Shown one piece after another: positions 3,715 to 15,751 of a stretch of DNA of 21,362 bases (position 1 is its first letter; every line of letters begins with the position of its first letter). The stretch lies in IMG/VR virus record IMGVR_UViG_3300025137_000357, positions 1 through 21,362 of that record. One strand, written 5' to 3'. Both the position numbers and the translations under genes were made by a program. The notes under the pieces were generated by a model that searched no databases, was not told the origin of the DNA, and saw nothing but the letters and a program-made list of their open reading frames with translations. The DNA is from a virus.

Positions 3715-5238
3715 ATGTCACTTGCACAAAGATTTTATGATTTATTTAAAGGTAGCGATATTGCTCATGGCACATATGTCGTAAAGGGTAGTCGTAGCAC
3801 TGATGGCAAAAAGCAGGGTCAGGCCACGGTTTTGCGTGAGCCAACCACTGTAGATATGTGGGAAGAACATTTAAAAGGTGGCACAGGATTAGGCATTATA
3901 CCTATCCGTAGTGATAACCTTTGCCAGTGGGGTGCAATAGATATAGACCAATACGATGTTAGCCATAAAGATTTAGTAACAGTATTAAAAGATAATAAGA
4001 TACCAGCCGTTGTCGGTAGGACTAAATCGGGTGGAGCGCATATATGGGCATTTCTAACTGAACCAATTGAAGCTGAAGATGTGCAAAGGCGCATGACAGA
4101 ATTAAGCGCAGCTCTTGGCTATTCAGGTAGTGAAATATTCCCTAAACAAACAACCATATTAAAAGACCGTGGTGATACAGGTAACTTTTTAAATATGCCT
4201 TATCATGGTGGTGATAATTCTACACGTTATGCGTTTAACCAAGATGGTGAAGCATTGAGTGCAGAACAATTCCTAGAGTATGCACAATCATTTATTCTTA
4301 CACCAAATAAATTCTTAAAAACTACTATGAGTTTTGGAACTAAAGATGGTGTGTTAAAAGAAGGTCCCCCATGTTTGCAGCATCTATGCAGTAAGGGTTT
4401 TGGAGAAGGCTCACGCAACAATGCCCTTTTCAATCTTGGTGTGTATGCACGAATGTTTGATGAAGAAAATTGGGAAGTGTTAGTGCAACGATACAACATG
4501 GATTACTTACACCCACCCCTTAGTCATAATGAGGTAGGTGTAGTTATTCGCCAGCTTAAAAAGAAAGATTACTTTTATAAATGTGATGACCAACCAATAA
4601 AACCTTTCTGTGATAAAGAAATATGTAAGGGCAGAAAGTATGGTGTTGGACCAACAGGTGTTGGCAATGATATGTCAAGTCTCACAAAGATTGATGGTGA
4701 TCCACCTATCTGGATTCTTGATGTAGATGGTGAAAGGCTAGAGCTTTCTACTAATGGTTTGACTAGCCAAGCACAGTTTCAAAAAGAATGTGTTTCGCAA
4801 ATAAATAAGTTCCCTGTAGTTGTAAACCAGAGAGCATGGCAGACCCGAATACAAATGTTGTTAGATAATTTAACTATTGTGGAAGTACCACCTGACGCCA
4901 CTATAAAAGGTGAGTTTGAAGATTTACTTCATGCTTTTTGTTGTGAGAGAGCTAAAGGTGAAGACCGTGAAGATGTACTGCAAGGCGTTGCCGTTTGGGT
5001 AGAGGGTAGGGTGTTTTTCCAAGTAAAAGATATTAAAAAGCACTTGTCTGTAAATGATTTTACACATTACAGTTCTAATAAGATCACATTGCGATTACAG
5101 AACATAGAAGCAGAAAAGATGTTCTGGCGTGTGAGGGGAAAAGGTGTTCACGTTTGGTCGTTACCCCAAGAGTTTTTTCAAGGGGAAGATTCTGATATTC
5201 CTTTGCCAGATCTTCCAGTTGCCGATGGGATTATATAG
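3715..5238 (+). CDS. archaeo-eukaryotic-type primase (TOTE-like AEP with PriCT-like domain)
   Basis: A 507-residue DNA primase that would synthesise primers at the phage fork. The AEP catalytic signature is present: IDID (75-78) with two metal-binding aspartates, SGGAHIWAF (105-113) for the Ser/His motif, and EIFPKQ (140-145). NFLNMPYH (157-164) follows, as in TOTE-type primases. A PriCT-like helical segment spans about 220-285 (CLQHLC..., GSRNNALFNLGVYAR). A Cys cluster (C290, C299, C304) in a segment running to about residue 311 looks zinc-binding. The C-terminal 190 residues are unassigned. I chose ATG 3715 because TTGGAGGA lies just upstream; the frame is open back to 3637, but that extension runs through two RNA hairpins. 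The stop overlaps the helicase GTG by one base. The AEP family is confident; the TOTE subtype is likely. Confidence 0.88.
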   Translation: MSLAQRFYDLFKGSDIAHGTYVVKGSRSTDGKKQGQATVLREPTTVDMWEEHLKGGTGLGIIPIRSDNLCQWGAIDIDQYDVSHKDLVTVLKDNKIPAVVGRTKSGGAHIWAFLTEPIEAEDVQRRMTELSAALGYSGSEIFPKQTTILKDRGDTGNFLNMPYHGGDNSTRYAFNQDGEALSAEQFLEYAQSFILTPNKFLKTTMSFGTKDGVLKEGPPCLQHLCSKGFGEGSRNNALFNLGVYARMFDEENWEVLVQRYNMDYLHPPLSHNEVGVVIRQLKKKDYFYKCDDQPIKPFCDKEICKGRKYGVGPTGVGNDMSSLTKIDGDPPIWILDVDGERLELSTNGLTSQAQFQKECVSQINKFPVVVNQRAWQTRIQMLLDNLTIVEVPPDATIKGEFEDLLHAFCCERAKGEDREDVLQGVAVWVEGRVFFQVKDIKKHLSVNDFTHYSSNKITLRLQNIEAEKMFWRVRGKGVHVWSLPQEFFQGEDSDIPLPDLPVADGII

Positions 5239-6755
5239 TGCAGATTGTACTCGGACCTCCAGGAACAGGTAAGACAACTAAGTTACTCAACTTAGTTGAA
5301 CAGTACATGCAATCTGGAGTGCCACCAGACCGTATCGGTTACTTTGCCTTTACACGTAGGGCTGCAACAGAAGCCGTAGACCGCGCTTGTACTAAGTTCA
5401 ATTTAACGAAAAAAGAGTTACCATACTTCCGCACTCTACATAGTTTAGCTTTTTTCATGTCAGGTATGAAGCACTCACAAGTTATGACAGGTGAGAAATA
5501 CCAAGAAGTTGCTGAGTGGTTAAAAATAGGTAAGTTTTTTGGTGGGGGAGTAGTTGACCAAGGACCATACAAAGATTTCGGGTATGGCGATAAATTCCTT
5601 GAAATTATAAATGTATCTCGTATTCTGCGCCAACCATTACGCCAAGTTTATAATGAAAGTATTGTCCCCTTAAAAACAGATTGGGCAAGGGTAGAATATG
5701 TTAGCCGAGGATTACAGCATTGGAAAAAAGCATATGGGTTACAAGATTATGCGGGGATGTTAGAAACTTTCGTAGACCAAGAATTATGCCCACGATTAGA
5801 AGTAGTTTTTATTGATGAAGCACAAGATTTATCTCCCCTTCAGTGGGAGATGGTAAGATTACTAGAGCAAAATAGCCAGATGTGCTATGTCGCTGGAGAT
5901 GACGACCAAGCCATTTTTCGTTATGCTGGAGCAGACGTAGATCATTTTGTAGGACTCCAAGGGGAAGTCACCCTCTTGAATAAGTCCTATCGTATTCCCT
6001 CCTTGCATCATGCACTTAGTCACAAAGTTATAAAGCGCATCGTAGGAAGGCGGGACAAAATTTTTGAACCCAAAGAAGGTGATGGTGGTATGTTCTGGCA
6101 TAGGCACTCCGAAGAAGTAGATTTAAGTTCGGGTGATTGGCTGTTACTTAGCCGCACTACTCGTGGCGCACAGCAAATAGAGGAAGAAGTACGCCGAAGA
6201 GGACACCTCTATATTTACAATGGTTCAACAAGTATAGATAGTAAAGTGTTAGAGGCAGTACGTTACTGGGAACATTTACGAGAAGGCCATCGTTTAAATA
6301 CAGAGCAGGTCAAACTTGTTTACAAACACATGCTTTTAAATACTCAGGTAGCTTATGGTTATAAGACCATGCCTGATGGCGATGATTCTAGTTTTTATAG
6401 CCTTGAAGATTTACAAAAAGATCATGGTTTAATGCACAGTCAGCCTTGGGATGTGGGGCTGGGTAAAATAAATGAACGTGACCGCACTTACATAAAAGCC
6501 TGTTTACGTAAAGGTGAAAGCCTAACTGATACGCCACGTTTACGAATATCTACTATTCATTCCTCCAAAGGAGCGCAAGCTACAAATGTAATGCTGTTAA
6601 CTGATACTATGCGTAGACCTTACAGTATGTGGAGGAAAATAAATAACCATGTAGAAGATGAAGCTAGGGTGTTTTATGTAGGTTTAACAAGAGCTACAGA
6701 TAATTTACATTTGATTCACCCCATGTTTAGTCAAGGGTATGCTCTTCCTAGCTGA
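5238..6755 (+). CDS. UvrD/Rep-like superfamily 1 DNA helicase
   Basis: A 505-residue SF1A helicase. Motif I is GPPGTGKTT (6-14), motif Ia AFTRRAATEA (37-46), motif Ib RTLHSLAF (65-72), motif II FIDEAQDLS (191-199), motif III GDDDQAIFRYAGAD (from 220), motif IV LNKSYRIP, motif V STIHSSKGAQ (about 438-447) and motif VI FYVGLTRATD (about 479-488). It lacks the large C-terminal extension of UvrD, so it is a compact phage form. The start is GTG 5238, sharing a base with the primase TAG (TAGTG), so translation is probably coupled and the two proteins may act together at the fork. No DnaB-type helicase occurs in this window, so this protein or the SNF2 protein may be the fork helicase (inference). 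Confidence 0.93.
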   Translation: MQIVLGPPGTGKTTKLLNLVEQYMQSGVPPDRIGYFAFTRRAATEAVDRACTKFNLTKKELPYFRTLHSLAFFMSGMKHSQVMTGEKYQEVAEWLKIGKFFGGGVVDQGPYKDFGYGDKFLEIINVSRILRQPLRQVYNESIVPLKTDWARVEYVSRGLQHWKKAYGLQDYAGMLETFVDQELCPRLEVVFIDEAQDLSPLQWEMVRLLEQNSQMCYVAGDDDQAIFRYAGADVDHFVGLQGEVTLLNKSYRIPSLHHALSHKVIKRIVGRRDKIFEPKEGDGGMFWHRHSEEVDLSSGDWLLLSRTTRGAQQIEEEVRRRGHLYIYNGSTSIDSKVLEAVRYWEHLREGHRLNTEQVKLVYKHMLLNTQVAYGYKTMPDGDDSSFYSLEDLQKDHGLMHSQPWDVGLGKINERDRTYIKACLRKGESLTDTPRLRISTIHSSKGAQATNVMLLTDTMRRPYSMWRKINNHVEDEARVFYVGLTRATDNLHLIHPMFSQGYALPS

Positions 6756-6771
6756 AAACAAAAGAGTTATC

Positions 6772-6814
6772 GTTTGTTACGGCTTAGTGCATTGTTAGGT
6801 TGCTGGTAACAAAC
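6772..6814 (+). repeat. inverted repeat abutting a ribosome-binding site
   Basis: GTTTGTTAC (6772-6780) and GTAACAAAC (6806-6814) are perfect 9-bp inverted arms around a 25-nt loop, and the second arm touches AGAAAGGAG (6815-6823). The 13-base string AAAAGAGTTATC plus CTTAGT downstream also occurs near 20352-20380 at another gene boundary. In RNA it could set access to the ribosome site; in DNA it could be an operator. Confidence 0.5.
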
Positions 6815-6828
6815 AGAAAGGAGCCACC

Positions 6829-7089
6829 ATGCAAGTGAAGTACTTTAACAAAGCGTCTCTGCTAGATGCGAACAATGAAGCTATATTATCTGAGCGTAAC
6901 CGTTCTTTGCATAATGAAAAAATTGTTGATATTGCAGATGACACCTTATTCCCCATCGTTTTTAGTATGCCACATAACGATGTGGAAATGCGGGTTGAAC
7001 TTATGCTTGACCCCACAACAAAGGTTTGGTTAGATATGCCTTTTGAAGCATATGAAGCCTTACCTTCAGTAGACTACCCAACACAGTAA
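6829..7089 (+). CDS. hypothetical protein (86 aa)
   Basis: A small acidic soluble protein behind a near-ideal ribosome site (AGAAAGGAG, 6815-6823). It starts MQVKYFNKASLLDANNEA, has a mixed alpha/beta look and a Met/Pro/aromatic C-terminal half (WLDMPFEAYEALP). No motif, membrane segment or signal is visible. It is the first gene after the primase/helicase pair and lies directly upstream of the DUF932 gene (24-bp gap), with which it is probably co-transcribed. Function unknown. Confidence 0.75.
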   Translation: MQVKYFNKASLLDANNEAILSERNRSLHNEKIVDIADDTLFPIVFSMPHNDVEMRVELMLDPTTKVWLDMPFEAYEALPSVDYPTQ

Positions 7090-7113
7090 TACTCTAGAAA
7101 GGAGTAATTTATA

Positions 7114-8142
7114 ATGGCACATTTAGTTGAGACTATGGCGTATGCAGGACAAGTTCCTTGGCACGGTTTAGGAACCGCTGTTGATGGTAATATGTCACCC
7201 CAAGAAATGTTGGTTGCGGCTGGCATTGACTGGACAGTTAGTAAGCGTCCTGCTTATACAGTTGATAAACCTAACTGTTGGAATATTATCGATCCAACTG
7301 GTGAGGCTGGTTTTATCCGCGCACCAGATGCACACTTCCTTGTACGGGATAGCGATAACAAAGTGCTTTCGCATTGTGGTGATGGTTATGTACCTTTCCA
7401 AAATGCTGAAGTTATGGACTTCTTTAAAAAGTTTACCGATGCTGGGCAAATGTCCATGGAAACAGCGGGTAGCTTGAAAGAAGGTAAGGATATATGGGGG
7501 CTGGCAAAGCTAACTGATAAGTTTAGCCTTGGCGGTGATGATGAAGTTAAGGGGTACTTGCTTTTGAATAACAGCCACCAAGTAGGCAAAGCGATGACTA
7601 TTATGTTCACCCCTATTCGTGTTGTGTGTAACAATACTCTTACACAGGCTATGAGCATGGAGGGCAACCGCTTCCGCGTACTACATCTGCAAATGTTCGA
7701 TGAAGAAATACAGAAAGCCGCTGAAGAGGCTTTGGGTATTAGCGGTCAGCAAATGAACAAGTTCAAAGAGCAGTCTGAGTTCTTAGCAAAGAAACGTGCA
7801 AAAGAGTTCGATGTTGATAACTTTATTGCTGAGTTATTCCAACCCCACTTGTTGATTGAGCGAGCCAAGGCTTCTGTAAAAGATGACTTGCCACCCTTAC
7901 GTGATGAGTTTAAGCGTACTGCCGAACTTGTTGAAGAAGCATTACACACGAGTCCTGGTGCGAGTATGAAGTCTGCCAAGGGTACTTGGTGGGGTGCGCT
8001 CAATGCAGTAACTTATGTAGTAGATCACCAGAAGCGTTCACAAGCTGAAGGTAACGCACTGCACTCTGCATGGTTTGGTTCTGGCGCGAATACAAAACGC
8101 AAGGCTCTAGCTAAAGCACTAGAATATGCTGATGCAGCATAA
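7114..8142 (+). CDS. DUF932 / TIGR03299 phage-plasmid protein
   Basis: A 342-residue member of the DUF932 (phage/plasmid-like TIGR03299) family. The N-terminal signature MAYAGQVPWHGLGTAVDG (9-26) is typical, as are GKDIWGLAKL (about 124-133) and the RVVCNNTL segment (about 170-177), followed by a long helical C-terminal part. Length matches the family. The family is widespread in phages and plasmids, often beside replication or recombination genes; its biochemical role is not established to my knowledge. The start follows AGAAAGGAG with 9-nt spacing. A promoter/palindrome follows the gene, so it probably ends the transcription unit begun at 6829. Confidence 0.88.
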   Translation: MAHLVETMAYAGQVPWHGLGTAVDGNMSPQEMLVAAGIDWTVSKRPAYTVDKPNCWNIIDPTGEAGFIRAPDAHFLVRDSDNKVLSHCGDGYVPFQNAEVMDFFKKFTDAGQMSMETAGSLKEGKDIWGLAKLTDKFSLGGDDEVKGYLLLNNSHQVGKAMTIMFTPIRVVCNNTLTQAMSMEGNRFRVLHLQMFDEEIQKAAEEALGISGQQMNKFKEQSEFLAKKRAKEFDVDNFIAELFQPHLLIERAKASVKDDLPPLRDEFKRTAELVEEALHTSPGASMKSAKGTWWGALNAVTYVVDHQKRSQAEGNALHSAWFGSGANTKRKALAKALEYADAA

Positions 8143-8157
8143 TTGACAAAGTAGTTC

Positions 8158-8197
8158 TTGTCTTGGCATGGTTCGTTTACTAAAATGAATCATGCCA
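8158..8197 (+). promoter_or_regulatory. promoter inside an 11-bp palindrome
   Basis: TTGTCT (8158-8163), 17 bp, TAAAAT (8181-8186) form a sigma70-like promoter. The arms TGGCATGGTTC (8164-8174) and GAATCATGCCA (8187-8197), 11 bp with one G-U, flank the -10 box exactly. As DNA this resembles an operator over a promoter; as RNA it is a hairpin followed by TTTT, so a terminator for the DUF932 unit is the alternative reading. Confidence 0.55.
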
Positions 8198-8221
8198 TTT
8201 TCCATAGAAAGGGAGATTAAT

Positions 8222-8818
8222 ATGTTTTATGCAATATGTGAAGGGGTTCCAGGAAGTTCTGGTCCAGCCTACGTTATCTACAAGTTTAACTCTTTGGAAA
8301 ACATTAAAGAGTGTGAGGCAGTTAACGAATACAGCATTGTGTACAATGGCGAATCACCCCGACAGTTAGTAGAGTTTTGTTCTGTAGAGGAGCTACACGA
8401 AATTGCTGTCGCAATAGGTGGGGATTTAACTTATGTTTCCCACCAACAAGCGGCTGACTATGTGCATCAAGCAGTAGTTAAGAAAGCCAAAAACTGGAAA
8501 CCCCAAGAGGAGCCTAATATGTCTGCTGTTCACGTAGATCAGTTTAATAATAAAGCGCAAAAGCATGAGGCAACCGAAAAGAAAAAACAAGTTCGCACTC
8601 GTTTCAGAAACGATGCTCGTATCATTGTGTTGAAAGATACACCCACTGTACGTGAGGGTACTAATCGTTTTCGTAATATGAAGGTTATTATGGAAAGTGC
8701 TACAGTTGGTGAAGCGATAGCTAAACTTCGCGCACTTACCCCTGCTCCAGGATCTGGGGTGGATATTAGGATAGCATGTGAAGCGGGTGTTATAAAACTA
8801 GACTGGCAAGAGGAATAG
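8222..8818 (+). CDS. hypothetical protein, possible dual start (198 aa)
   Basis: First gene of the presumed base-modification unit. ATG 8222 (MFYAICEGVPGSSG) is chosen because AAAGGGAG sits 8 nt upstream; the frame is open 10 codons further but without a ribosome site. The N-terminal half (to about residue 95) is a small alpha/beta domain. A Lys/Gln-rich linker follows, then a basic C-terminal part with RTRFRNDARIIVL and a hydrophobic helix. A second in-frame ATG at 8519 has its own GAGGAG site 7 nt upstream and would yield just the C-terminal 99 residues, so the gene may make two products. I recognise no family with confidence. Three bases separate it from the next gene. Confidence 0.75.
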   Translation: MFYAICEGVPGSSGPAYVIYKFNSLENIKECEAVNEYSIVYNGESPRQLVEFCSVEELHEIAVAIGGDLTYVSHQQAADYVHQAVVKKAKNWKPQEEPNMSAVHVDQFNNKAQKHEATEKKKQVRTRFRNDARIIVLKDTPTVREGTNRFRNMKVIMESATVGEAIAKLRALTPAPGSGVDIRIACEAGVIKLDWQEE

Positions 8819-8820
8819 CT

Positions 8821-9717
8821 ATGTTACCCGAAGCTGTAGAAAGTTACTTCGGCTGGATAAATGAGCGGCACTCGATATACCAGCGTAGGTTATCGGGTGC
8901 GCCACCACCTTGGACTAATGACCCTATCCTACAAGAGTTTAAGTTTACAAACCCTTTCCGTGAAAATGATAGGGTTACTGTATGGATGCGTGAAAACTGG
9001 ACAAAGCCAAATGGTAATCGCTTCCATGGAGAAATACTGTTTAACTGTTGTTTGTTCCGTATGGTTGGCACAAGTGAGTTTGCTGAAAAGCATGGCTGGG
9101 CAGAAGAGTTTAACCCTGCTCGTACAAAAGAATTAATACAAACTAGAATTGACAATGGTTTACGGACATTTACTGGTGCTTATATAATCACTAACCAAGG
9201 ACTCAAAGCACCAAAATCAGAGGTAGTAGTTGATCACTTCCTTTCGCCCATCTGGAAAAACAAAGAAACGTTGGCGCAGATTGCCGCTGATACGCAGTCG
9301 CTCCAAGCGTTACATGAAGCGATGGGTGCGTATAAAGGGTGGGGAGGAGGAGGTTTTATGTCATACGAGGTGGTTACCGACCTCAACCACACACCTGTAT
9401 TGGACAAGGCAAAAGACCGTTTTAGTTGGGCGAATGCAGGTCCAGGAGCAATACGAGGATTAAACCGTATTTTAGGCATCCCCCTGAAAAAGGGTATGAC
9501 TCAACCTATTGCTAATGAGCATATGATCAGGTTGTTAAAAGCAGCTAAATTTTTTGTATTACCCCACGTCCCACTTGAAGAAGTAGATATGCGTACGATT
9601 GAGCATAGCCTATGTGAGTGGGATAAGTATGAGCGTGTAAGGCTGGGGCAAGGTAGACCAAGAAGTATTTATAAAGCCAGTTTAATAAACGATATGCCGA
9701 AAGGAGCTGTAGAATGA
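8821..9717 (+). CDS. putative DNA base hypermodification protein (HMUDK-helical / aGPT-Pplase-like)
   Basis: A 298-residue mainly helical protein. Its N terminus carries the pattern WINERHSIYQRRLSG (12-26) followed by PPPWTNDPILQ, FKFTNPFREND: a W-x-x-E-R, P-W-T-x-D-P-I-L and N-x-x-R-x-x-D arrangement. I associate this with the thymine-hypermodification families described by Iyer, Aravind and colleagues (5-hmdU DNA kinase helical domain and alpha-glutamyl/putrescinyl-thymine pyrophosphorylase groups). No P-loop kinase domain is fused. A glycine-rich insert, GWGGGGF (near 174-180), stands out. The gene overlaps the glycosyltransferase by ATGA and lies upstream of a TS-family enzyme, the expected neighbourhood. 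It probably acts on hydroxymethylated thymine in DNA, but the exact reaction cannot be read from sequence, and the family call is from memory of the motif. Confidence 0.65.
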   Translation: MLPEAVESYFGWINERHSIYQRRLSGAPPPWTNDPILQEFKFTNPFRENDRVTVWMRENWTKPNGNRFHGEILFNCCLFRMVGTSEFAEKHGWAEEFNPARTKELIQTRIDNGLRTFTGAYIITNQGLKAPKSEVVVDHFLSPIWKNKETLAQIAADTQSLQALHEAMGAYKGWGGGGFMSYEVVTDLNHTPVLDKAKDRFSWANAGPGAIRGLNRILGIPLKKGMTQPIANEHMIRLLKAAKFFVLPHVPLEEVDMRTIEHSLCEWDKYERVRLGQGRPRSIYKASLINDMPKGAVE

Positions 9718-10988
9718 AGTTTCTAATGACAATGTTTCAAATACAAGATTATGGTGGGATTATTAACCATGCTGAGTATCTTGCAAAAGGTTTAAAAGAA
9801 TTAGGTCACGAGGTTGATTTTACTATGCTTGTGCCTAAACATAAAGTAGCCAGTAAAAGTCCCCCACCAAAAAACTTTGACCAATACCGTAAAGTTGGCA
9901 CAGGATACTTACACCATCAAGCCAGAGGTTGGGCGGGTTTACCTAAGATTCCTTACCTTTCTAAATACCATAGGGATTTGTTTAAACAGAAGTGCAGTAA
10001 ATACGATGCTGTTTTATGGCACATCCCTGTACCTACTATGAGTAAGGAAAATAAGGGCATTACTGAATGGTTAGATTTGTACAATCACGGCACTAAGAAC
10101 ATAGCCATTATACATGATGGTAACCTACCTGAGTTGTACCCCCACTTAATCCATGTGCGCGAGATGTTCCATTCTGCTGTATGTGTACATGAGTCAGCTA
10201 TGATTTCTGGTAGTATGCTACCCATACCCCGCAAGCTGATAGTAAATCCGTTTGATGTTAGTATGGCAGATGGTTGGACTGACTTTGAAAAACGTGATGG
10301 TTTTGCAGCGGTGCAAGTTTTTAAAGCATGGAAGCGTGTGGATACTTTAGTTCGCGCGATTAGATACATGCAGAATACTGAACAAAAGCTCGTAGGTGGC
10401 GAAGGTATAGAGTACCGCTACATGACTAGCCCCGATAAATGTAAGCCTAAGTATTTTGATGAGGTGGGTGAACGTATTTGGGATAGAGCCAAGCGTTTCG
10501 GCATGGAGCATTTAGGAACAGTGCCAAATGATAAAGTGTTTGAAATACTAAAACAGGTCAAATTACAGATTGACCCGAGCTATAGTAAAAAGTATTCTAG
10601 TTTTGGCGCACACTTTAATAGAACAACTGTGGAAGCAATAATCTGTGGTGCAGTGCCTATGGCTACTGATTGGGGTATGCGGGATAGTGAGATATTTAAA
10701 GCAGGACAGAACTACATACAAATCCCAGCAGAGTGTAAATCGTTTGTGTTTGCCGATATTGTGGATAATGCAGTGCATGATAAAGATCAATGGATTCGTA
10801 TAAAAGAAAATAACTTAAAATTATTAGAGTTGTTTGATATGCGTAATGTAGCTCAAAGCTATGTTGATCTGGTAAACAATACACAAGAACTGCTTATCGG
10901 CACTCCAGATGCTAAAGCCATGCAAAAATGCCATAAAAACCTAGAGTTCTTCGGCATTGGCTCTTCAGACATTGCTCGAGTGGTTTAG
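9714..10988 (+). CDS. GT-B fold glycosyltransferase (GT4-like), possible DNA-base glycosyltransferase
   Basis: A 424-residue two-domain glycosyltransferase. The N-terminal Rossmann lobe has the GT4-type acceptor loop YGGIINHAEYLAKGLKELG (13-31), and the C-terminal lobe has FNRTTVEAIICGAVPMATD, matching the E-x7-type nucleotide-sugar site of GT4 enzymes. No signal peptide or membrane anchor is seen, so it is cytoplasmic. ATG 9714 overlaps the previous TGA (ATGA) behind AAAGGAG, so it is co-translated with the hypermodification protein and sits just before the TS-family gene. That context points to sugar transfer onto a hydroxymethylated base in phage DNA, analogous in role, not in family, to T4 glucosyltransferases. 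Glycosylation of a surface or structural component is the main alternative. Confidence 0.8.
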   Translation: MKFLMTMFQIQDYGGIINHAEYLAKGLKELGHEVDFTMLVPKHKVASKSPPPKNFDQYRKVGTGYLHHQARGWAGLPKIPYLSKYHRDLFKQKCSKYDAVLWHIPVPTMSKENKGITEWLDLYNHGTKNIAIIHDGNLPELYPHLIHVREMFHSAVCVHESAMISGSMLPIPRKLIVNPFDVSMADGWTDFEKRDGFAAVQVFKAWKRVDTLVRAIRYMQNTEQKLVGGEGIEYRYMTSPDKCKPKYFDEVGERIWDRAKRFGMEHLGTVPNDKVFEILKQVKLQIDPSYSKKYSSFGAHFNRTTVEAIICGAVPMATDWGMRDSEIFKAGQNYIQIPAECKSFVFADIVDNAVHDKDQWIRIKENNLKLLELFDMRNVAQSYVDLVNNTQELLIGTPDAKAMQKCHKNLEFFGIGSSDIARVV

Positions 10989-11047
10989 TATTGTTTAGGT
11001 CACATACCTACCACCCCTAACCCTTAACCACGTCGAGGAGGCGTTGT

Positions 11048-12025
11048 ATGCAGTCAATTAATGCAAGAGGAGTAAGTGAAGCTCTGTTTTTAGGCCAACA
11101 AGCCTTATTTTCGTCAGGTAAAGAAGTAAATACCCGAAATGGTTTAGCACTTGAGTTTCCTACCCCTGTAATCACTACTTATACCCATAGCAGGGAACGA
11201 GTTTTGTTTTACCCTGAACGCGATGCTAATCCTTATTTCCACTTAATGGAAAGTTTATGGATGTTAGCAGGGAGGAATGATGTTGATTGGATAAGCCAGT
11301 TTAACGGCAGGATGAATACATACAGTGATGATGGTAAAACTTTTCACGGTGCGTATGGATATAGATGGCGAAACTGGTTTGGCATGGATCAACTTAAAAC
11401 AATCCAGTTTAGGTTATCTACTTACCATAATGACCGTAGGGCTGTTCTTGGTATATGGGATCCACATCAAGATTTAGTTCAAACAAATGATGGTAAGGAT
11501 TACCCCTGCAATACACAGATATATTTTTGGGAGCGTGATGAAAAACTTAACATGACTGTAACTAACCGCAGTAATGATATGATCTGGGGTGCGTATGGGG
11601 CTAACGCAGTTCATATGTCTGTGCTTTTAGAATATATGGCAGGGATGCTCGGCTATGCAGTAGGGACATATTACCAGTTTTCTAATAACCTTCATGCTTA
11701 TGTAAGTGTTTTAGAAAAACTAAAAGATATGCAACCAGAGTACGAGCCTTACCTAACTATAGCTGATGATGGTTTGAGTTATAACCCACCAGCTTTGATT
11801 GATGATGCAGATTCATTTGATGAAGAGTTACTGGCTTGGTTTGAGGATGAAAACCGTGCAGATTACAATAACTCTTATCTTTCTAGCACTTGTGGCGAAA
11901 TGAGAAAATCATGGCGGTATTGGAAAGCAAAGAATTTCCCTAGCGCATACCATCATGCCGATAAAATAGAAGACCGTGCTTGGCGCAAGGCTTGTATAGA
12001 ATGGTTAGATAGGAGATTAAGGTGA
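11048..12025 (+). CDS. thymidylate synthase family enzyme, possible dUMP hydroxymethylase
   Basis: A 325-residue TS-fold nucleotide methyl/hydroxymethyltransferase. Landmarks are YGYRWR (103-108), the arginine pair RR (130-131) with LGIWDP, the catalytic cysteine in YPCNTQ (Cys154), NRSNDMIWG (173-181) and YYQFSNNLHAY. Classic ThyA has PPCH and FNIASY at the active site; here they read YPCN and GANAVHM, as in divergent phage TS proteins and base hydroxymethylases. About 100 residues extend past the core, with no ThyA-type C-terminal tail. The product could be dTMP or 5-hydroxymethyl-dUMP. Its neighbours (glycosyltransferase, hypermodification protein, Nmad1-like protein) favour hydroxymethylation, as for phage SPO1-type enzymes, but sequence alone does not settle this. 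It starts at ATG 11048 behind GAGGAGG. Confidence 0.85.
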   Translation: MQSINARGVSEALFLGQQALFSSGKEVNTRNGLALEFPTPVITTYTHSRERVLFYPERDANPYFHLMESLWMLAGRNDVDWISQFNGRMNTYSDDGKTFHGAYGYRWRNWFGMDQLKTIQFRLSTYHNDRRAVLGIWDPHQDLVQTNDGKDYPCNTQIYFWERDEKLNMTVTNRSNDMIWGAYGANAVHMSVLLEYMAGMLGYAVGTYYQFSNNLHAYVSVLEKLKDMQPEYEPYLTIADDGLSYNPPALIDDADSFDEELLAWFEDENRADYNNSYLSSTCGEMRKSWRYWKAKNFPSAYHHADKIEDRAWRKACIEWLDRRLR

Positions 12026-12375
12026 AAAGGCATGAGAAATATATGAAAGATAAAATGAAAGAAGAAGAAGTAAGCTCTGTTATTAAACAGGTTGGTAAGC
12101 TCAGTGTTCTAGACCATGTTAAGTTGGAAGAAGCTGAACAATCTTACGGTGATAGCTGGAAGCAGCGTGGTGGTGTTGGTGCTTTTATGATGTTAGCTCG
12201 TAAATGGGATAGGCTTGAAAAACAAGTAACAGAACATAATTATGATGTGTTTAAAGCTATACAGGGAGATAACAGGCAGGAAGGTATAATAGATGATATA
12301 CGTGATCTGCGTAGGTATTTATTTCTTGTAGAAGCGGAGATGATTTTACGCGGCAATGTCAGAAAACAAAAGTAA
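12022..12375 (+). CDS. Nmad1/DUF1599-like nucleotide-modification-associated protein
   Basis: A 117-residue helical protein. The motifs SYGDSW (about 41-46), MLARKWDRLEKQ (about 57-68) and DDIRDLRRYLFLVEAE (about 92-107) resemble the all-alpha Nmad1/DUF1599 domain. Iyer and colleagues linked that domain to phage DNA-modification operons. The pattern of acidic and basic residues recalls MazG-type nucleotide-binding helices, so handling a modified dNMP or dNTP is plausible. GTG 12022 overlaps the TS stop (GTGA) behind TAGGAG, which makes it part of the same translational unit as the TS-like enzyme. The family match is from motif memory and moderate; the tight coupling to the TS-like gene is directly visible. 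Confidence 0.65.
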   Translation: MKRHEKYMKDKMKEEEVSSVIKQVGKLSVLDHVKLEEAEQSYGDSWKQRGGVGAFMMLARKWDRLEKQVTEHNYDVFKAIQGDNRQEGIIDDIRDLRRYLFLVEAEMILRGNVRKQK

Positions 12376-12532
12376 TTTAGATAAAGAAGTATTAGCCGAG
12401 TGCGAGTGCGGAAGAGAAACGAAGATTGTTACTTTCCGTAATCTTAAAAATAGATGGCCGATATGCAGTAAGTGCAAAAGGCCGATGAAAGTAAAAGGTA
12501 ATGCAATACCCATTATTTCAACCACCGACTGA
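12356..12532 (+). CDS. small zinc-ribbon protein (58 aa)
   Basis: A 58-codon open frame overlaps the end of the Nmad1-like gene by 20 bp and the start of the polymerase gene by 32 bp. It encodes CEC (C16, C18) and, 18 residues later, CSKC (C37, C40), a four-cysteine knuckle typical of small zinc ribbons, in a Lys/Arg-rich context that suits nucleic-acid binding. ATG 12356 has only a weak upstream ribosome site, so expression may rely on coupling. It fills an otherwise empty 125-bp gap in a tightly packed operon, which supports it being real. Partner and role are unknown. Confidence 0.55.
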   Translation: MSENKSNLDKEVLAECECGRETKIVTFRNLKNRWPICSKCKRPMKVKGNAIPIISTTD

Positions 12533-14429
12533 GTGGGTTATGCCTGATGGCTACCCTGATATTTCTAGTTCTAAAGAAGTTGCTATTGATCTAGAAACAC
12601 GCGACCCTAACCTTACGACGATGGGAAGTGGTTGGCCTAGAAAAGATGGTCACATTATTGGGATAGCTGTGGCGGTAGAAGGTGACCAATGGTACTTTCC
12701 CATCAGACACGAGATTGGTCCTAACTTTGATGTAAAAAGAACTTTAGGGTGGTTAGCAGATGTTTGTAAAATTGATAGGACTTACGTTTTTCATAATGCT
12801 CCTTACGATGTCGGTTGGATGCTCGCAGAAGGTGTGCGTGTACAAGGAAAAATCATTGATACAATGGTCGTTGCGCCACTGTTAGATGAAAACAGATTCA
12901 GTTATGCTTTAAATGCTATTGGTAGAGATTACCTACAAGAGCGCAAAAGTGAAGTTGAGTTAAGGGAAGCAGCCGAGGCTTTTGGTGTAAATGCTAAAAG
13001 TGAGATGTATAAACTTCCTGCTCACCATGTAGGGAAATACGCTGAACAAGATGCTGCGCTAACATTAAAACTCTGGCAGCATTTTAAAACATTAATAATA
13101 AAAGAAGATATTAAAGATATCTTTGAACTTGAAATAAATGTTCTTAAAACAATTATACCAATGCGCGAGCGTGGTGTCAGGGTTGATTTAGATAAATGTG
13201 AGCGTATAAAGAAAGAGTTACTACAAAAAGAGCAACAACTATTAGGGCTAATAAAAAGAGCAACAGGAGTAGAAGTAGAAATATGGGCGGCTGAAAGTGT
13301 TTCTAGGGCTTTTGATGCTTTAAGTCTACCTTACAGTAAAACAGAAAAGACAGGTGCGCCTAGCTTTACTAAAGGGTTCTTAAGTAATCACCCCCATGAA
13401 GTCCCGCAAATGATTGTACAGGCTAGGGAATATCAAAAAGCGCGTAGCACTTTTGTAGACACTATACTTAAACACCAAGTAGACGGACGTATACATGCTG
13501 AGTTACACCCCCTACGTAATGATGGGGGAGGCACGGTGACTGGTAGATTTAGTTATAGCAACCCTAATCTTCAACAAATACCAGCAAGGCATGGCGAAAT
13601 AGGTCCAATGATACGCAGCTTGTTTATACCAGAACAAGACTGTTTATGGGGCGCATTCGACTACTCCAGCCAAGAACCACGTATTGTTGTGCATTATGCT
13701 AAACTCATGGGCTTTAGGGGGGCTTCAGACTTTGCTGAGCAATACAACGCTGACCCCCGCACTGATTTTCACCAAATGGCGGCTGATATTGTAGGCGTCC
13801 CACGTAAACAGGCAAAAGATATCAACCTTGGTTTGTTTTATGGGATGGGTAGTAAAAAGCTGGCGGCAAGTCTTGGTTTAGAGTTTGAAGATGCTCAAGA
13901 ACTGTTCGCCACATACCATGATAAAGTACCCTTTGTGCGTGAGCTTAGTGATTACAGCACTAACCGAGCTAATTCTCGTGGTGTTATCCGCACATTATTG
14001 GGGCGTAGGTGTAGATTCGATAAGTGGGAGCCTAATAAGTATGGGACTTGGAAACCCATGACATACCAAGAAGCCTACGCAGAGCATGGTCCTGGAATTA
14101 AAAGAGCGTTTACATACAAAGCTCTTAATAAACTCATACAAGGTAGCGCGGCAGATCAAACAAAAGCAGCGATGGTTGCTCTAGCTGATGAAGGCATACT
14201 ACCCATGATTCAAGTTCACGATGAACTAGATGTATCTGTTGAGTCAGAAGAACAAGCAAAAAAGATAACTGAAATAATGCAAGATTGTGTTAAATTAGAA
14301 GTTCCTTCTATAGTGGATGCTGAGTTTGGTCCAAACTGGGGGGAAGCAAAACAAACCTTCACGGAAAAACCGTGGATAAGAGGATTAAAAGATGGCAGCA
14401 CAGAAATGCAGCACAACATCACGAATTAA
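12501..14429 (+). CDS. polA: DNA polymerase I, family A, with 3'-5' exonuclease
   Basis: A 642-residue replicative-type phage PolA. Proofreading motifs are intact: DLE (D30, E32), HNAPYD (N99, D103) and YAEQD (Y180, D184). Polymerase motif A is FDYSSQE (D387, E392), motif B RKQAKDINLGLFYG (R435, K439, Y447) and motif C VHDE (H573, D574, E575); TGRFSYSNPNLQQIP (348-361) is also typical. There is no 5'-nuclease domain. The residue aligned with E. coli Phe762 is Leu443, a variant reported in environmental phage PolA surveys and linked there to slower or temperate replication. ATG 12501 has a short AAAGG site very close upstream; the N terminus FQPPTEW agrees with phage homologues as I remember them. 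The end overlaps the HD nucleotidase by 38 bp. Confidence 0.95.
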   Translation: MQYPLFQPPTEWVMPDGYPDISSSKEVAIDLETRDPNLTTMGSGWPRKDGHIIGIAVAVEGDQWYFPIRHEIGPNFDVKRTLGWLADVCKIDRTYVFHNAPYDVGWMLAEGVRVQGKIIDTMVVAPLLDENRFSYALNAIGRDYLQERKSEVELREAAEAFGVNAKSEMYKLPAHHVGKYAEQDAALTLKLWQHFKTLIIKEDIKDIFELEINVLKTIIPMRERGVRVDLDKCERIKKELLQKEQQLLGLIKRATGVEVEIWAAESVSRAFDALSLPYSKTEKTGAPSFTKGFLSNHPHEVPQMIVQAREYQKARSTFVDTILKHQVDGRIHAELHPLRNDGGGTVTGRFSYSNPNLQQIPARHGEIGPMIRSLFIPEQDCLWGAFDYSSQEPRIVVHYAKLMGFRGASDFAEQYNADPRTDFHQMAADIVGVPRKQAKDINLGLFYGMGSKKLAASLGLEFEDAQELFATYHDKVPFVRELSDYSTNRANSRGVIRTLLGRRCRFDKWEPNKYGTWKPMTYQEAYAEHGPGIKRAFTYKALNKLIQGSAADQTKAAMVALADEGILPMIQVHDELDVSVESEEQAKKITEIMQDCVKLEVPSIVDAEFGPNWGEAKQTFTEKPWIRGLKDGSTEMQHNITN

Positions 14430-14925
14430 AACACTCACAACAGTTTGGGATGCTCAGTTTTTATTGAGGTATCACACTGTTGCGAATCAATCAGAAAGGC
14501 AGACCGTGGGAGCACATTCATATGCAGTAAGTGTTTTAATAGACCAATTATGGCCTGACAGCACTAAACAATTGATAATGGCGGCACTGTATCATGATGT
14601 GCCAGAAATAATTTTAGGTGATATCCCAGCTACAGCTAAGTGGGCTTATCCAGAAATACAACAAGCCTTTGATAAAGCTGAGAAAAAAGTGTTTGACGAT
14701 CTTGGATTGATATTTGTACTTAGCCCAGAAGAAAAAGCAAGACTCAAAATGGCAGATATGCTTGAGTTAGTTTTGTACACACATCGGCATTCACAGGGCA
14801 GTGATCAAATGAAAATGATTATGCACTCTGGTATAAATTATTTATACGAAAAGTTTTCTTCACATAAAGACTTTGAACCGATAAAAAAAGTTCTAGCTCA
14901 CTATAATCTGGGAGGGATACCGTGA
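14392..14925 (+). CDS. HD-domain 5'-deoxynucleotidase (YfbR-like)
   Basis: A 177-residue HD phosphohydrolase. Metal ligands fit the HD family: H42 in AHSYA, H68-D69 in LYHDVPE, and D122 in MADMLE. GDIPATAK (76-83) follows the E. coli YfbR pattern, an enzyme that removes the 5'-phosphate from dNMPs. In a phage with a base-modification cassette, such an enzyme could drain a canonical deoxynucleotide pool or recycle nucleotides, which is inference. The start at 14392 follows AGAGG and overlaps polA by 38 bp; the end overlaps the next gene by GTGA, so it is co-translated on both sides. Family assignment is strong; the preferred substrate is unknown. Confidence 0.88.
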   Translation: MAAQKCSTTSRIKTLTTVWDAQFLLRYHTVANQSERQTVGAHSYAVSVLIDQLWPDSTKQLIMAALYHDVPEIILGDIPATAKWAYPEIQQAFDKAEKKVFDDLGLIFVLSPEEKARLKMADMLELVLYTHRHSQGSDQMKMIMHSGINYLYEKFSSHKDFEPIKKVLAHYNLGGIP

Positions 14926-15206
14926 ACTGCATCAAATGTGGCAATAAAAGTAAAGTTTATGACAGTCGACCCCACAAAGATAGCGTAAAACGCCATCGAC
15001 AATGTTTAAAGTGCGGTCATAGATACGCCACATTAGAAGTCATGTTTATTGTAGAAGAGTTGCCTAAAGCAGAGCCAAAACCACCTAAATTAAAATTAGT
15101 GAAAAAACCTGTAAGAAAAAAGAAAATGAAATTTGAAGATCTAGATCTAGCTTCTATGACAGATGAAGAGATAGAAGTAGCTATATCTAGTGGTAATTAT
15201 CTATAA
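14922..15206 (+). CDS. NrdR-type zinc-ribbon protein (94 aa)
   Basis: The N-terminal 40 residues copy the zinc ribbon of the ribonucleotide-reductase repressor NrdR: C3-x2-C6, DSR (14-16), a basic KRHRQ run, C28-x2-C31 and YATLE (35-39). The NrdR ATP-cone that follows in bacteria is missing. Instead there is a Lys/Pro-rich linker (about 50-70) and a short acidic tail (DLDLASMTDEEIEVA). It might bind nrd operators without nucleotide control and so raise or lower host dNTP synthesis, or simply bind nucleic acid; this is inference. It starts with GTG 14922 behind a strong GGAGGG site and overlaps the nucleotidase stop. Confidence 0.8.
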   Translation: MNCIKCGNKSKVYDSRPHKDSVKRHRQCLKCGHRYATLEVMFIVEELPKAEPKPPKLKLVKKPVRKKKMKFEDLDLASMTDEEIEVAISSGNYL

Positions 15207-15253: not shown

Positions 15254-15751
15254 ATGAATATATTTATCATCGACTGGAACCACACTATCTGCGCTCAATG
15301 GCATTGTAATAAGCATGTTGTCAAAATGCCACTTGAGACAACCCAAATGCTCAGCACTATTCACCATAGGTACAGTAATGATGGACCATACTTACCTGTT
15401 CATCAAAAACATCCTTGCACATTATGGGCTGGTCAAACGGTAGAAAACTACCGATGGCTTTGGCAGTTAGGTATCGCATTATGCAAAGAATACACTTATC
15501 GTTATGATAAAACTCATGGTTGTGAGCGTATTCTTGCAATGTTACGCTGTCCACCAGTAGAATTGACTGCGAGGGGGTTTACAAAACCAGCTCAGGCAAT
15601 GCCCGATGAGTATAAGCATTCTGACACGATAATTGCATACCAAGATTATTATATAAACGAAAAAGCGAGGATATGCTCATGGCGCAAAAGACCAATACCG
15701 CCCTTCATGGAGGAGATAATGTCATCCCCTTCATACCGAGAGACAGGTTAA
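15254..15751 (+). CDS. conserved phage protein, unknown function (165 aa)
   Basis: A 165-residue soluble protein with many conserved-looking His, Cys and Trp residues. Its segments are CAQWHCNKHVVKMPLETTQM (about 13-32), HPCTLWAGQTVENYRWLW (about 53-70), MPDEYK and AYQDYY, with ICSWRKRPIPPFM near the C terminus. I recognise this as a family recurring across marine and other phages, with no function known to me. The clustered His/Cys near the N terminus could bind a metal. ATG 15254 has only a weak upstream GG. The end overlaps the next zinc-ribbon gene by about 70 bp. Confidence 0.8.
   Translation: MNIFIIDWNHTICAQWHCNKHVVKMPLETTQMLSTIHHRYSNDGPYLPVHQKHPCTLWAGQTVENYRWLWQLGIALCKEYTYRYDKTHGCERILAMLRCPPVELTARGFTKPAQAMPDEYKHSDTIIAYQDYYINEKARICSWRKRPIPPFMEEIMSSPSYRETG

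Follow-up and report, generated by a model that had tools for sequence, protein, structure and literature searches.

We analysed a virus record of 21,362 bases (IMG/VR record IMGVR_UViG_3300025137_000357, positions 1 to 21,362; hereafter the window) from a marine-type phage, which carries a run of genes best read as a cassette for thymine hypermodification and glycosylation of phage DNA. At its centre lie four consecutive open reading frames (ORFs), 8821-12375, found in the order described by the initial annotation of this sequence. They encode a protein of the helical family HMUDK_hel, a glycosyltransferase (GT), an enzyme of the thymidylate synthase (TS) superfamily and a small conserved protein. 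All cassette genes are on the plus strand, and polA and a nucleotidase gene follow:

8821..9717, plus strand: HMUDK_hel protein (PF18723), 298 aa
9714..10988, plus strand: GT-B (GT4-like) glycosyltransferase, 424 aa, the exchangeable gene
11048..12025, plus strand: TS-superfamily enzyme, 325 aa, predicted dUMP 5-hydroxymethylase, with motif NRSNDMIWGAYGAN
12022..12375, plus strand: conserved 117-aa protein, overlapping the TS gene by GTGA
12501..14429, plus strand: polA, family A DNA polymerase with 3'-5' exonuclease
14392..14925, plus strand: HD-domain YfbR-like 5'-deoxynucleotidase

An ATGA overlap (9714-9717) couples the HMUDK_hel and GT genes, and a GTGA overlap (12022-12025) couples the TS gene to that of the 117-aa protein. 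Both pairs had been recognised in the initial annotation, which counted three of the four genes as joined where in fact all four are. Its reading of the region as a thymine hypermodification and glycosylation cassette is still the best-supported one, minus the Nmad1 member that it had included. The GT as one of several exchanged alternatives, and the fold predicted below for HMUDK_hel, formed no part of that reading.

The glycosyltransferase gene occupies an exchangeable slot

A search with HMUDK_hel, from which we kept the best 80 of 125 viral stretches (a sample leaning towards relatives of the window), allowed the slot gene to be classified by tblastn in 80 loci, the window itself being a further GT case. 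The slot class is GT in 31 loci, TAGT (TET-associated glycosyltransferase) in 30, a family denoted c5 in 14 and a family denoted c23 in 4; the sole classless locus (L029) is on a contig that stops just after HMUDK_hel. Exactly one of the four classes is present in 79/80 loci and two together in 0/80, and the slot gene sits between HMUDK_hel and TS in 71/80, TS being off the contig in 7. Of the 30 TAGT loci, 28 also carry a radical SAM/SPASM gene and two are truncated; FkbM methyltransferases of one family (c14) lie beside TS or the slot in 7/80. Whole records were searched for a hand-picked 39 of the 80 relatives (the remaining 41 consist largely of near copies and shorter stretches); these 39 divide without overlap into GT (17), TAGT (11), c5 (8) and c23 (3: L074, L075 and L079). 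Searching with c23 returned 4 viral loci only, namely the records of these three and of L080. The ORF caller missed TAGT in L061 to L064 and L067, for which tblastn was used, with a profile in addition for L061 and L064; the TAGT of L013 matches phrog_842, beta-glucosyl-HMC-alpha-glucosyltransferase, at E 1.8e-42. The gene set recurs over tens of phage records, beyond chance, and the GT position is an exchangeable slot among related phages.

Comparison of the window with relative L002 makes one exchange directly visible. DNA identity is 90.8% up to the HMUDK_hel stop codon and 81.0% after the GT, with a homology-free stretch at 9719..11006 between them and homology resuming 41 bases before TS (alignment blocks 1-2918 and 4207-7621 of window 6801-14500). 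Within 6.8-14.4 kb the GT alone has been replaced, in a precise swap. On trees of sequences less than 95% identical to each other (33 polA, 42 HMUDK_hel), 6 slot-class changes are needed on the best polA tree and 11 on the HMUDK_hel tree, the minimum being 3; weak branches may inflate the figure of 11, and 3 to 4 changes for GT, and as many for c5, are required by the well-supported branches on their own. PolA is 50-56% identical to that of its closest named relatives, 023Pt_psg01, DSL-LC04, HTVC027P and HTVC023P (HTVC023P-type pelagiphages plus DSL-LC04), in none of which HMUDK_hel was found. These four have a UvrD-type helicase gene and polA adjacent or with small genes between; the cassette site is therefore empty in these sister phages.

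Fold and linkage of the glycosyltransferase

The profile match of the 424-aa protein to Glyco_transf_4 is weak (7.8e-4, below cut-off), and it is the structure model that makes the GT-B call of the initial annotation firm. The best VIA-align match of the AlphaFold model (mean predicted local distance difference test score, pLDDT, 87) is T4 AGT (Z 25.9, root-mean-square deviation 3.9, 332 residues aligned), and AGT-DNA complexes with a 5-hydroxymethyluracil (HMU) base are among the top rows. HepE (25.8), PimA (25.3) and TarM (25.2) tie with AGT, and the fold alone therefore cannot separate DNA from other acceptors. On this model the protein is predicted to be a GT-B enzyme. The TAGT profile (PF20691) does not match the window GT but does match the alternative slot gene c1, and a search of cultured phages in the phage collection with the GT gave nothing at E<=0.01.

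We also searched from the GT side, with a GT alignment against viral and genome contigs, which gave 52 new loci and the earlier L056 from viral contigs, and one locus from a genome contig. In the fetched DNA of the new loci (L105-L157, n = 53), HMUDK_hel is present in 49/53 and TS in 51/53. The four loci that lack HMUDK_hel (L146, L150-L152) have a GT that starts <=174 bases from the end of the fetched stretch, and the two that lack TS, L129 and L130, come from the L066 and L069 records, in which TS is further off. Many loci are the same records in both searches, so the two are not independent samples. In L153-L156 polA is only 26-30% alike and the GT stands before HMUDK_hel in three of these four; with so distant a polA and a changed order, the linkage of GT, HMUDK_hel and TS therefore outlives synteny.

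Several of these loci carry further genes. In L153:5108-9786, from a phage with a distant polA (26%), consecutive genes encode HMUDK_hel, a GT (39%), a radical SAM protein (44%) and TS; radical SAM is therefore not tied to TAGT. L154:4153-7820 and L155:5378-9487 have an FkbM-type methyltransferase (31-32%), then GT, HMUDK_hel and TS, a combination that could possibly yield a methylated sugar. L157 (PANU01000095.1), filed in a Flavobacteriaceae metagenome-assembled genome, looks like phage because it carries HMUDK_hel-GT-TS-polA, and is probably a binned phage contig. A bacterial donor of the GT was considered and set aside, the one relative among 32 genome stretches being this phage-like contig.

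HMUDK_hel is a conserved protein with a predicted DNA-glycosylase fold

As the initial annotation had proposed, the 298-aa protein belongs to the helical hypermodification family and not to an unrelated one: it matches PF18723 at E 1.7e-48 over near full length (residues 5-275 on profile positions 3-276 of 281). The records used here label HMUDK_hel-like proteins aG/PT-PPlase1, presumably the older name of PF18723. In VIA-align, its AlphaFold (AF2) model (pLDDT 89.6) matches best the PaMx11 5-PmdU glycinyltransferase (8z2n; Z 11.7 over 231 residues, a score which, as the tool warns, can reflect a common arrangement in a mostly helical model), and further matches comprise a long run of HhH-GPD DNA glycosylases and DUF2419 queuine salvage enzymes. 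The profile for amino acid:DNA transferase (ADDT, PF18724), the family of M6 gp51, weakly matches the C-terminal half of HMUDK_hel in 6/39 relative records (E 3e-6 to 7e-4, below cut-off; positions within the protein converted by hand from contig ranges). Because of the VIA-align matches and these weak profile matches, HMUDK_hel is predicted to have an HhH-GPD DNA-glycosylase fold. Over 17 sequences of the GT, TAGT, c5, c23 and kinase types, 25 residues are invariant, the polar ones being R16, D34, N44, R47, D50, R80, Y121, D187, D199, E266 and K269; a GPG motif at residues 207-209 is invariant over the same set. D256 is a candidate catalytic Asp, with Glu at this position in 4/6 kinase types and Asn in L079.

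In the eight HMUDK_hel phages examined outside the relatives of the window, the domain keeps company with a kinase. In Goe26 it is fused behind the kinase (residues 312-597 and 35-193, respectively, of a 636-aa protein), in M6, Ab18, Sonora, AIIMS and RHph_I72 the two genes are distinct, with HMUDK_hel immediately or a short way downstream, and in K489 the distance is about 2 kb. The SPO1 record has no HMUDK_hel match.

Kinase and amino acid:DNA transferase genes were not found

The initial annotation had seen no P-loop kinase for 5-hydroxymethyldeoxyuridine (5-hmdU) and suggested a differing chemistry, which holds in the window and in 39/39 relative records. The 5-hmdU DNA kinase profile PF18748 finds nothing in the window, a 21-kb fragment, and nothing in the 39 relative records even at E<=1, where the same search found 4/4 kinase-type records (M6 and Sonora above cut-off; Ab18 at 15 bits and AIIMS at 17.9 bits, the cut-off being 27). 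PF18748 is present in 8/8 of the other HMUDK_hel phages examined (M6, Sonora, Ab18, AIIMS, RHph_I72, Goe26, CBA120 and K489; two below cut-off), and GT, c5 and TAGT in 0/6 of those searched. A divergent kinase in the relatives was considered and discarded: M6 gp54 as query, like PF18748, found none in the 39 records (E<=0.01). ADDT scores above cut-off in 0/40 records (window plus 39) versus 5/5 kinase-type phages, and the six weak PF18724 matches in relatives all lie inside HMUDK_hel.

Four of the genes concerned are annotated as "terminase small subunit" (L083:11686-12249, which is M6 gp54; L082:7541-8110; L087:2246-2908; L089:97-756). The M6 gp54, CBA120 orf074 and K489 "terminase" genes match PF18748 above cut-off (E 7.7e-18, 5e-113 and 1e-55), and Ab18 ORF12, also annotated as a terminase small subunit, matches it weakly (E 0.006).

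The TS-family enzyme resembles hydroxymethylases of 5-hmdU phages

The 325-aa enzyme matches PF00303 (E 1.3e-20) and phrog_5131 (E 4e-104). Among the best 50 of 1080 records, its best phage matches are in what we take to be M6/YuA-like phages (43%), with lower matches in CampHawk (38%), presumably SPO1-like, and in presumed Kuttervirus (ViI-kind) phages (35-38%). Its nearest solved structures are CMP 5-hydroxymethylases (E 1.8e-17, versus 9e-11 for the best ThyA). The form NRSND-x-x-WG-x-x-GAN is common to the window enzyme, six relatives, M6, Ab18, Sonora and SPO1 gp29, and the motif NRSNDMIWGAYGAN is the same in form in M6 gp58 and in SPO1 gp29, which is annotated dUMP hydroxymethylase; E. 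coli ThyA reads RSCDVFLG-LPFN at this site. The window enzyme has Asn aligned with ThyA Asn177, a position at which Asp marks dCMP enzymes.

The initial annotation had called this enzyme non-ThyA, and the trees agree. ThyA, T4-like td and GoCrazy split from the remaining rows with support 100/100 in a reduced tree, rebuilt without T4 gp42 (branch 10) and Send513 (branch 5.4) because of their long branches, and with 82/95 in the full tree that contains both. As judged from sequence, the window enzyme groups with the SPO1 and M6/YuA enzymes, apart from ThyA, and would make 5-hmdUMP, the monophosphate of 5-hmdU, from dUMP.

Neighbouring genes

Three features precede the cassette:

upstream of the cassette and of the terminator-like stem: DUF932 gene
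8164..8197, plus strand: terminator-like stem of 15 pairs between DUF932 and the cassette, from a consensus scan only
8222..8818, plus strand: conserved 198-aa protein (ORF caller start 8192, 208 aa)

The initial annotation had opened the cassette at 8222. With the purine-rich AGGGAG ahead of it, this position is a better start for the 198/208-aa gene than 8192, and the stem at 8164-8197 lies just upstream. The stem is a possible operon boundary; terminator-like sites over the region show no excess (6 found versus 6.2 in shuffles). The 198-aa protein has a homologue in 63/80 relatives and matches no family above cut-off in Pfam and PHROG profile searches.

The 117-aa protein had been called Nmad1-like, an assignment that we reject on the profile searches. 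The Pfam matches of 17 homologues include no Nmad family, and PF07659/DUF1599, which we take to be Nmad1, has no match at E<=5 in 14 records. The best Pfam match of the family is YnfE (E 3e-4), matched in 2/17 homologues, and the protein weakly matches a PHROG replication protein (E 5e-4). The nucleotidase gene is found where the initial annotation had placed it, after polA; its HD protein matches a YfbR-like profile (E 4.6e-11), is 33% identical to M6 gp59, itself beside the M6 TS gene, and could drain dTMP or dTTP.

The best model for PolA is the aminoadenine polymerase DpoZ (345.6 bits, below the cut-off of 500). A 2-aminoadenine (Z) genome, an idea prompted by this DpoZ-like PolA together with the HD gene, was rejected, as PurZ (PF00709) is present in 0/43 records, window included. 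Downstream, a 94-aa protein (14922-15206) has an NrdR-type zinc ribbon as its sole recognised part; in many relatives of the TAGT type, homologues separate HMUDK_hel from TAGT. A 165-aa protein (15254-15751) matches pyrimidine dimer DNA glycosylase PF03013 just below cut-off (E 1.5e-4) and strongly matches the first half of phrog_624 (E 3e-58). A near-identity search of the whole window against the phage collection gave no match.

Comparison with known systems

The clusters of Pseudomonas phage M6/YuA, Ab18 and Stenotrophomonas phage Sonora, like the window, hold uninterrupted runs with genes for HMUDK_hel, PolA and a TS of this kind, with the HD nucleotidase near TS in M6, Ab18 and AIIMS as in the window; identity of the window to M6 and Ab18 is 33-43% for HMUDK_hel, TS, PolA and HD. 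Where those three clusters have the kinase directly upstream of HMUDK_hel, the window and its relatives have a GT-type slot gene instead, and the ADDT that accompanies PLP/radical SAM or other genes in M6/YuA-type clusters is not found above cut-off in the window and relatives. SP10-like phages have a kinase with a fused helical domain; in Goe26 the PF18723 domain is the C-terminal half of the kinase, whereas in the window it stands alone and its gene overlaps that of the GT.

T4 resembles the pathway proposed here in using a TS-family hydroxymethylase and then a GT on DNA, with AGT as the GT-B match. It differs in acting on 5-hydroxymethyldeoxycytidine (5-hmdC) and in having no HMUDK_hel, and its dCMP enzyme falls outside the window TS group on a very long branch. 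The proposed product would, like base J of kinetoplastids, be a sugar on 5-hmdU, but base J is made by oxidation of thymine in DNA and not by a nucleotide hydroxymethylase.

Co-location of a GT with HMUDK_hel-type genes is already partly in print: the available text on HTVC023P-type pelagiphages from 2022 notes a GT near such genes among "partner AMGs" (auxiliary metabolic genes) and lists further glycosyltransferases as able to modify DNA or proteins (PMC9599517). In that text, the account does not extend to kinase loss, slot exchange, GT-B, c5 or c23 alternatives, fold or mechanism. Phosphorylation of 5-hmdU by a DNA kinase is thought to be a common step in M6, ViI and phiW-14, and the phages with the closest TS homologues hold 5-hmdU, according to the consulted part of PMC6449724 and in line with what is generally understood of them. 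In T6-like phages the second sugar is probably added by TAGT, as stated in the portion available of PMC13390438. We found no published description of a GT-for-kinase exchange in a literature search whose coverage lay outside the primary thymidine-pathway papers.

A proposed glycosylation pathway and its alternatives

Most likely, this phage puts a sugar on a modified thymine of its own DNA, and on balance we favour the view that the genes form a 5-hmdU DNA glycosylation cassette. We are confident that 5-hmdU is made in this phage, and only a little less so that the GT acts on 5-hmdU in DNA; whether HMUDK_hel is the partner of the GT we regard as an even call. In the proposed pathway, the TS-like enzyme would, as its family suggests, convert dUMP to 5-hmdUMP, the YfbR-like nucleotidase would lower dTMP/dTTP, further kinases would yield 5-hmdUTP, and PolA would insert it opposite A. 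HMUDK_hel, with its predicted base-flipping HhH-GPD fold, may then recognise and expose 5-hmdU in new DNA, a role suggested by that fold together with its adjacency or fusion to the kinase in M6/SP10-type phages. In the kinase's place, the GT-B enzyme would move a sugar from a host nucleotide-sugar onto the oxygen of the 5-hydroxymethyl group; the resulting thymine sugar, similar to base J, may shield the DNA from host nucleases. Related phages fill the same slot with TAGT plus radical SAM, or with the c5 or c23 family. The families, folds, fusion, exchange and linkage behind this proposal were computed, and from them we infer the dUMP substrate, 5-hmdU incorporation, base exposure, sugar transfer and protection.

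A broader reading, which we advance tentatively, is that HMUDK_hel is a general 5-hmdU-flipping platform licensing interchangeable modifiers: a kinase elsewhere, and here unrelated GT families swapped gene for gene, which would leave near-identical phages with different thymine sugars and so evade modification-dependent restriction. Some of these sugars would perhaps be methylated by FkbM enzymes or altered by radical SAM enzymes. That HMUDK_hel is kept across partner chemistries fits such a common platform more readily than a single fixed reaction.

A number of observations weigh against the proposed pathway or its parts. The Kuttervirus CBA120 and Vibrio K489 TS enzymes lack the shared motif, and SPO1, M6 and the window are not recovered as one TS clade, although the constraint is not rejected (approximately unbiased test, p 0.236). 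The GT of L066 and L069 lies outside the slot, its end some 5.4-5.6 kb upstream of HMUDK_hel. Profile similarity of c5 to the GT is weak (hhalign E 8e-4, probability 24%), and c23 as a glycosyltransferase was dropped, since Pfam, PHROGs, PDB sequences and profile comparison gave nothing for it; it cannot therefore be claimed that every alternative is a GT. For HMUDK_hel, Foldseek alone finds nothing at E<=0.001, the caution on helical arrangement applies to its VIA-align score, and kinase and HMUDK_hel are not always neighbours, being tens of kb apart in CBA120. T4 glycosylates its DNA although the T4 record has 0 HMUDK_hel matches; a GT can thus work without a partner of this kind. The non-DNA enzymes HepE, BshA and PimA match the GT model with scores close to that of AGT (Z 23-26). 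M6 has a dCMP deaminase, and neither the window nor any of the 39 relatives was found to have one; the absence of the kinase is read from a 21-kb fragment and from relative records that carry no completeness figure.

Some of these points lend themselves to other explanations, among which we consider it unlikely, though worth serious attention, that HMUDK_hel itself catalyses a separate step on 5-hmdU, while the GT modifies the base unaided, as happens in T4, and the two genes are neighbours only through a shared pathway. That a catalytic DNA-base transferase heads its structural matches, that 25 residues, polar ones included, are invariant over members of all types, and that T4 glycosylation does without HMUDK_hel are all consistent with this; its fusion to the kinase in Goe26 and its retention whatever the partner chemistry argue the other way. 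We think it improbable that the GT target is something other than DNA, such as the host surface or a protein, with TS merely supplying 5-hmdU or dTMP: the near-equal fit of non-DNA GT4 enzymes to the model, and the protein-modifying capacity that the available text allows pelagiphage glycosyltransferases (PMC9599517), are set against the presence of HMUDK_hel and TS at nearly all GT loci, including the four with distant polA, and against exchange of the GT with TAGT, whose family is linked to sugar transfer onto DNA bases in what is accessible of PMC13390438.

An M6-type pathway, in which the kinase is too divergent for the profile or lies off the fragments and the GT adds a further decoration, would likewise surprise us. 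Accepted kinases such as those of Ab18 and AIIMS do score well below the cut-off, and the records may be incomplete; the profile nevertheless recovered all four kinase-type records and none of the 39 relatives, the M6 gp54 query fared no better in those relatives, and ADDT is missing from the same records while present in every kinase-type phage examined for it. Least probable of all, in our judgement, is that the TS-like enzyme acts on dCMP, placing the sugar on 5-hmdC: CMP hydroxymethylases are indeed its nearest solved structures, but the window residue at ThyA Asn177 is Asn, and the closest TS homologues come from 5-hmdU phages, in so far as the consulted part of PMC6449724 and general knowledge of them go.

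Implications

If the 5-hmdU glycosylation pathway proposed here is true, a glycosyl branch would be added to thymidine hypermodification, which in M6, ViI and phiW-14 has been thought to pass via phosphorylated 5-hmdU, and the helical "kinase domain" would gain a role independent of the kinase. Phages would then be seen to swap the sugar-adding gene with no change to the remainder, a pattern that selection by modification-dependent (type IV) nucleases should produce. The new thymine sugars could also find use in labelling DNA.

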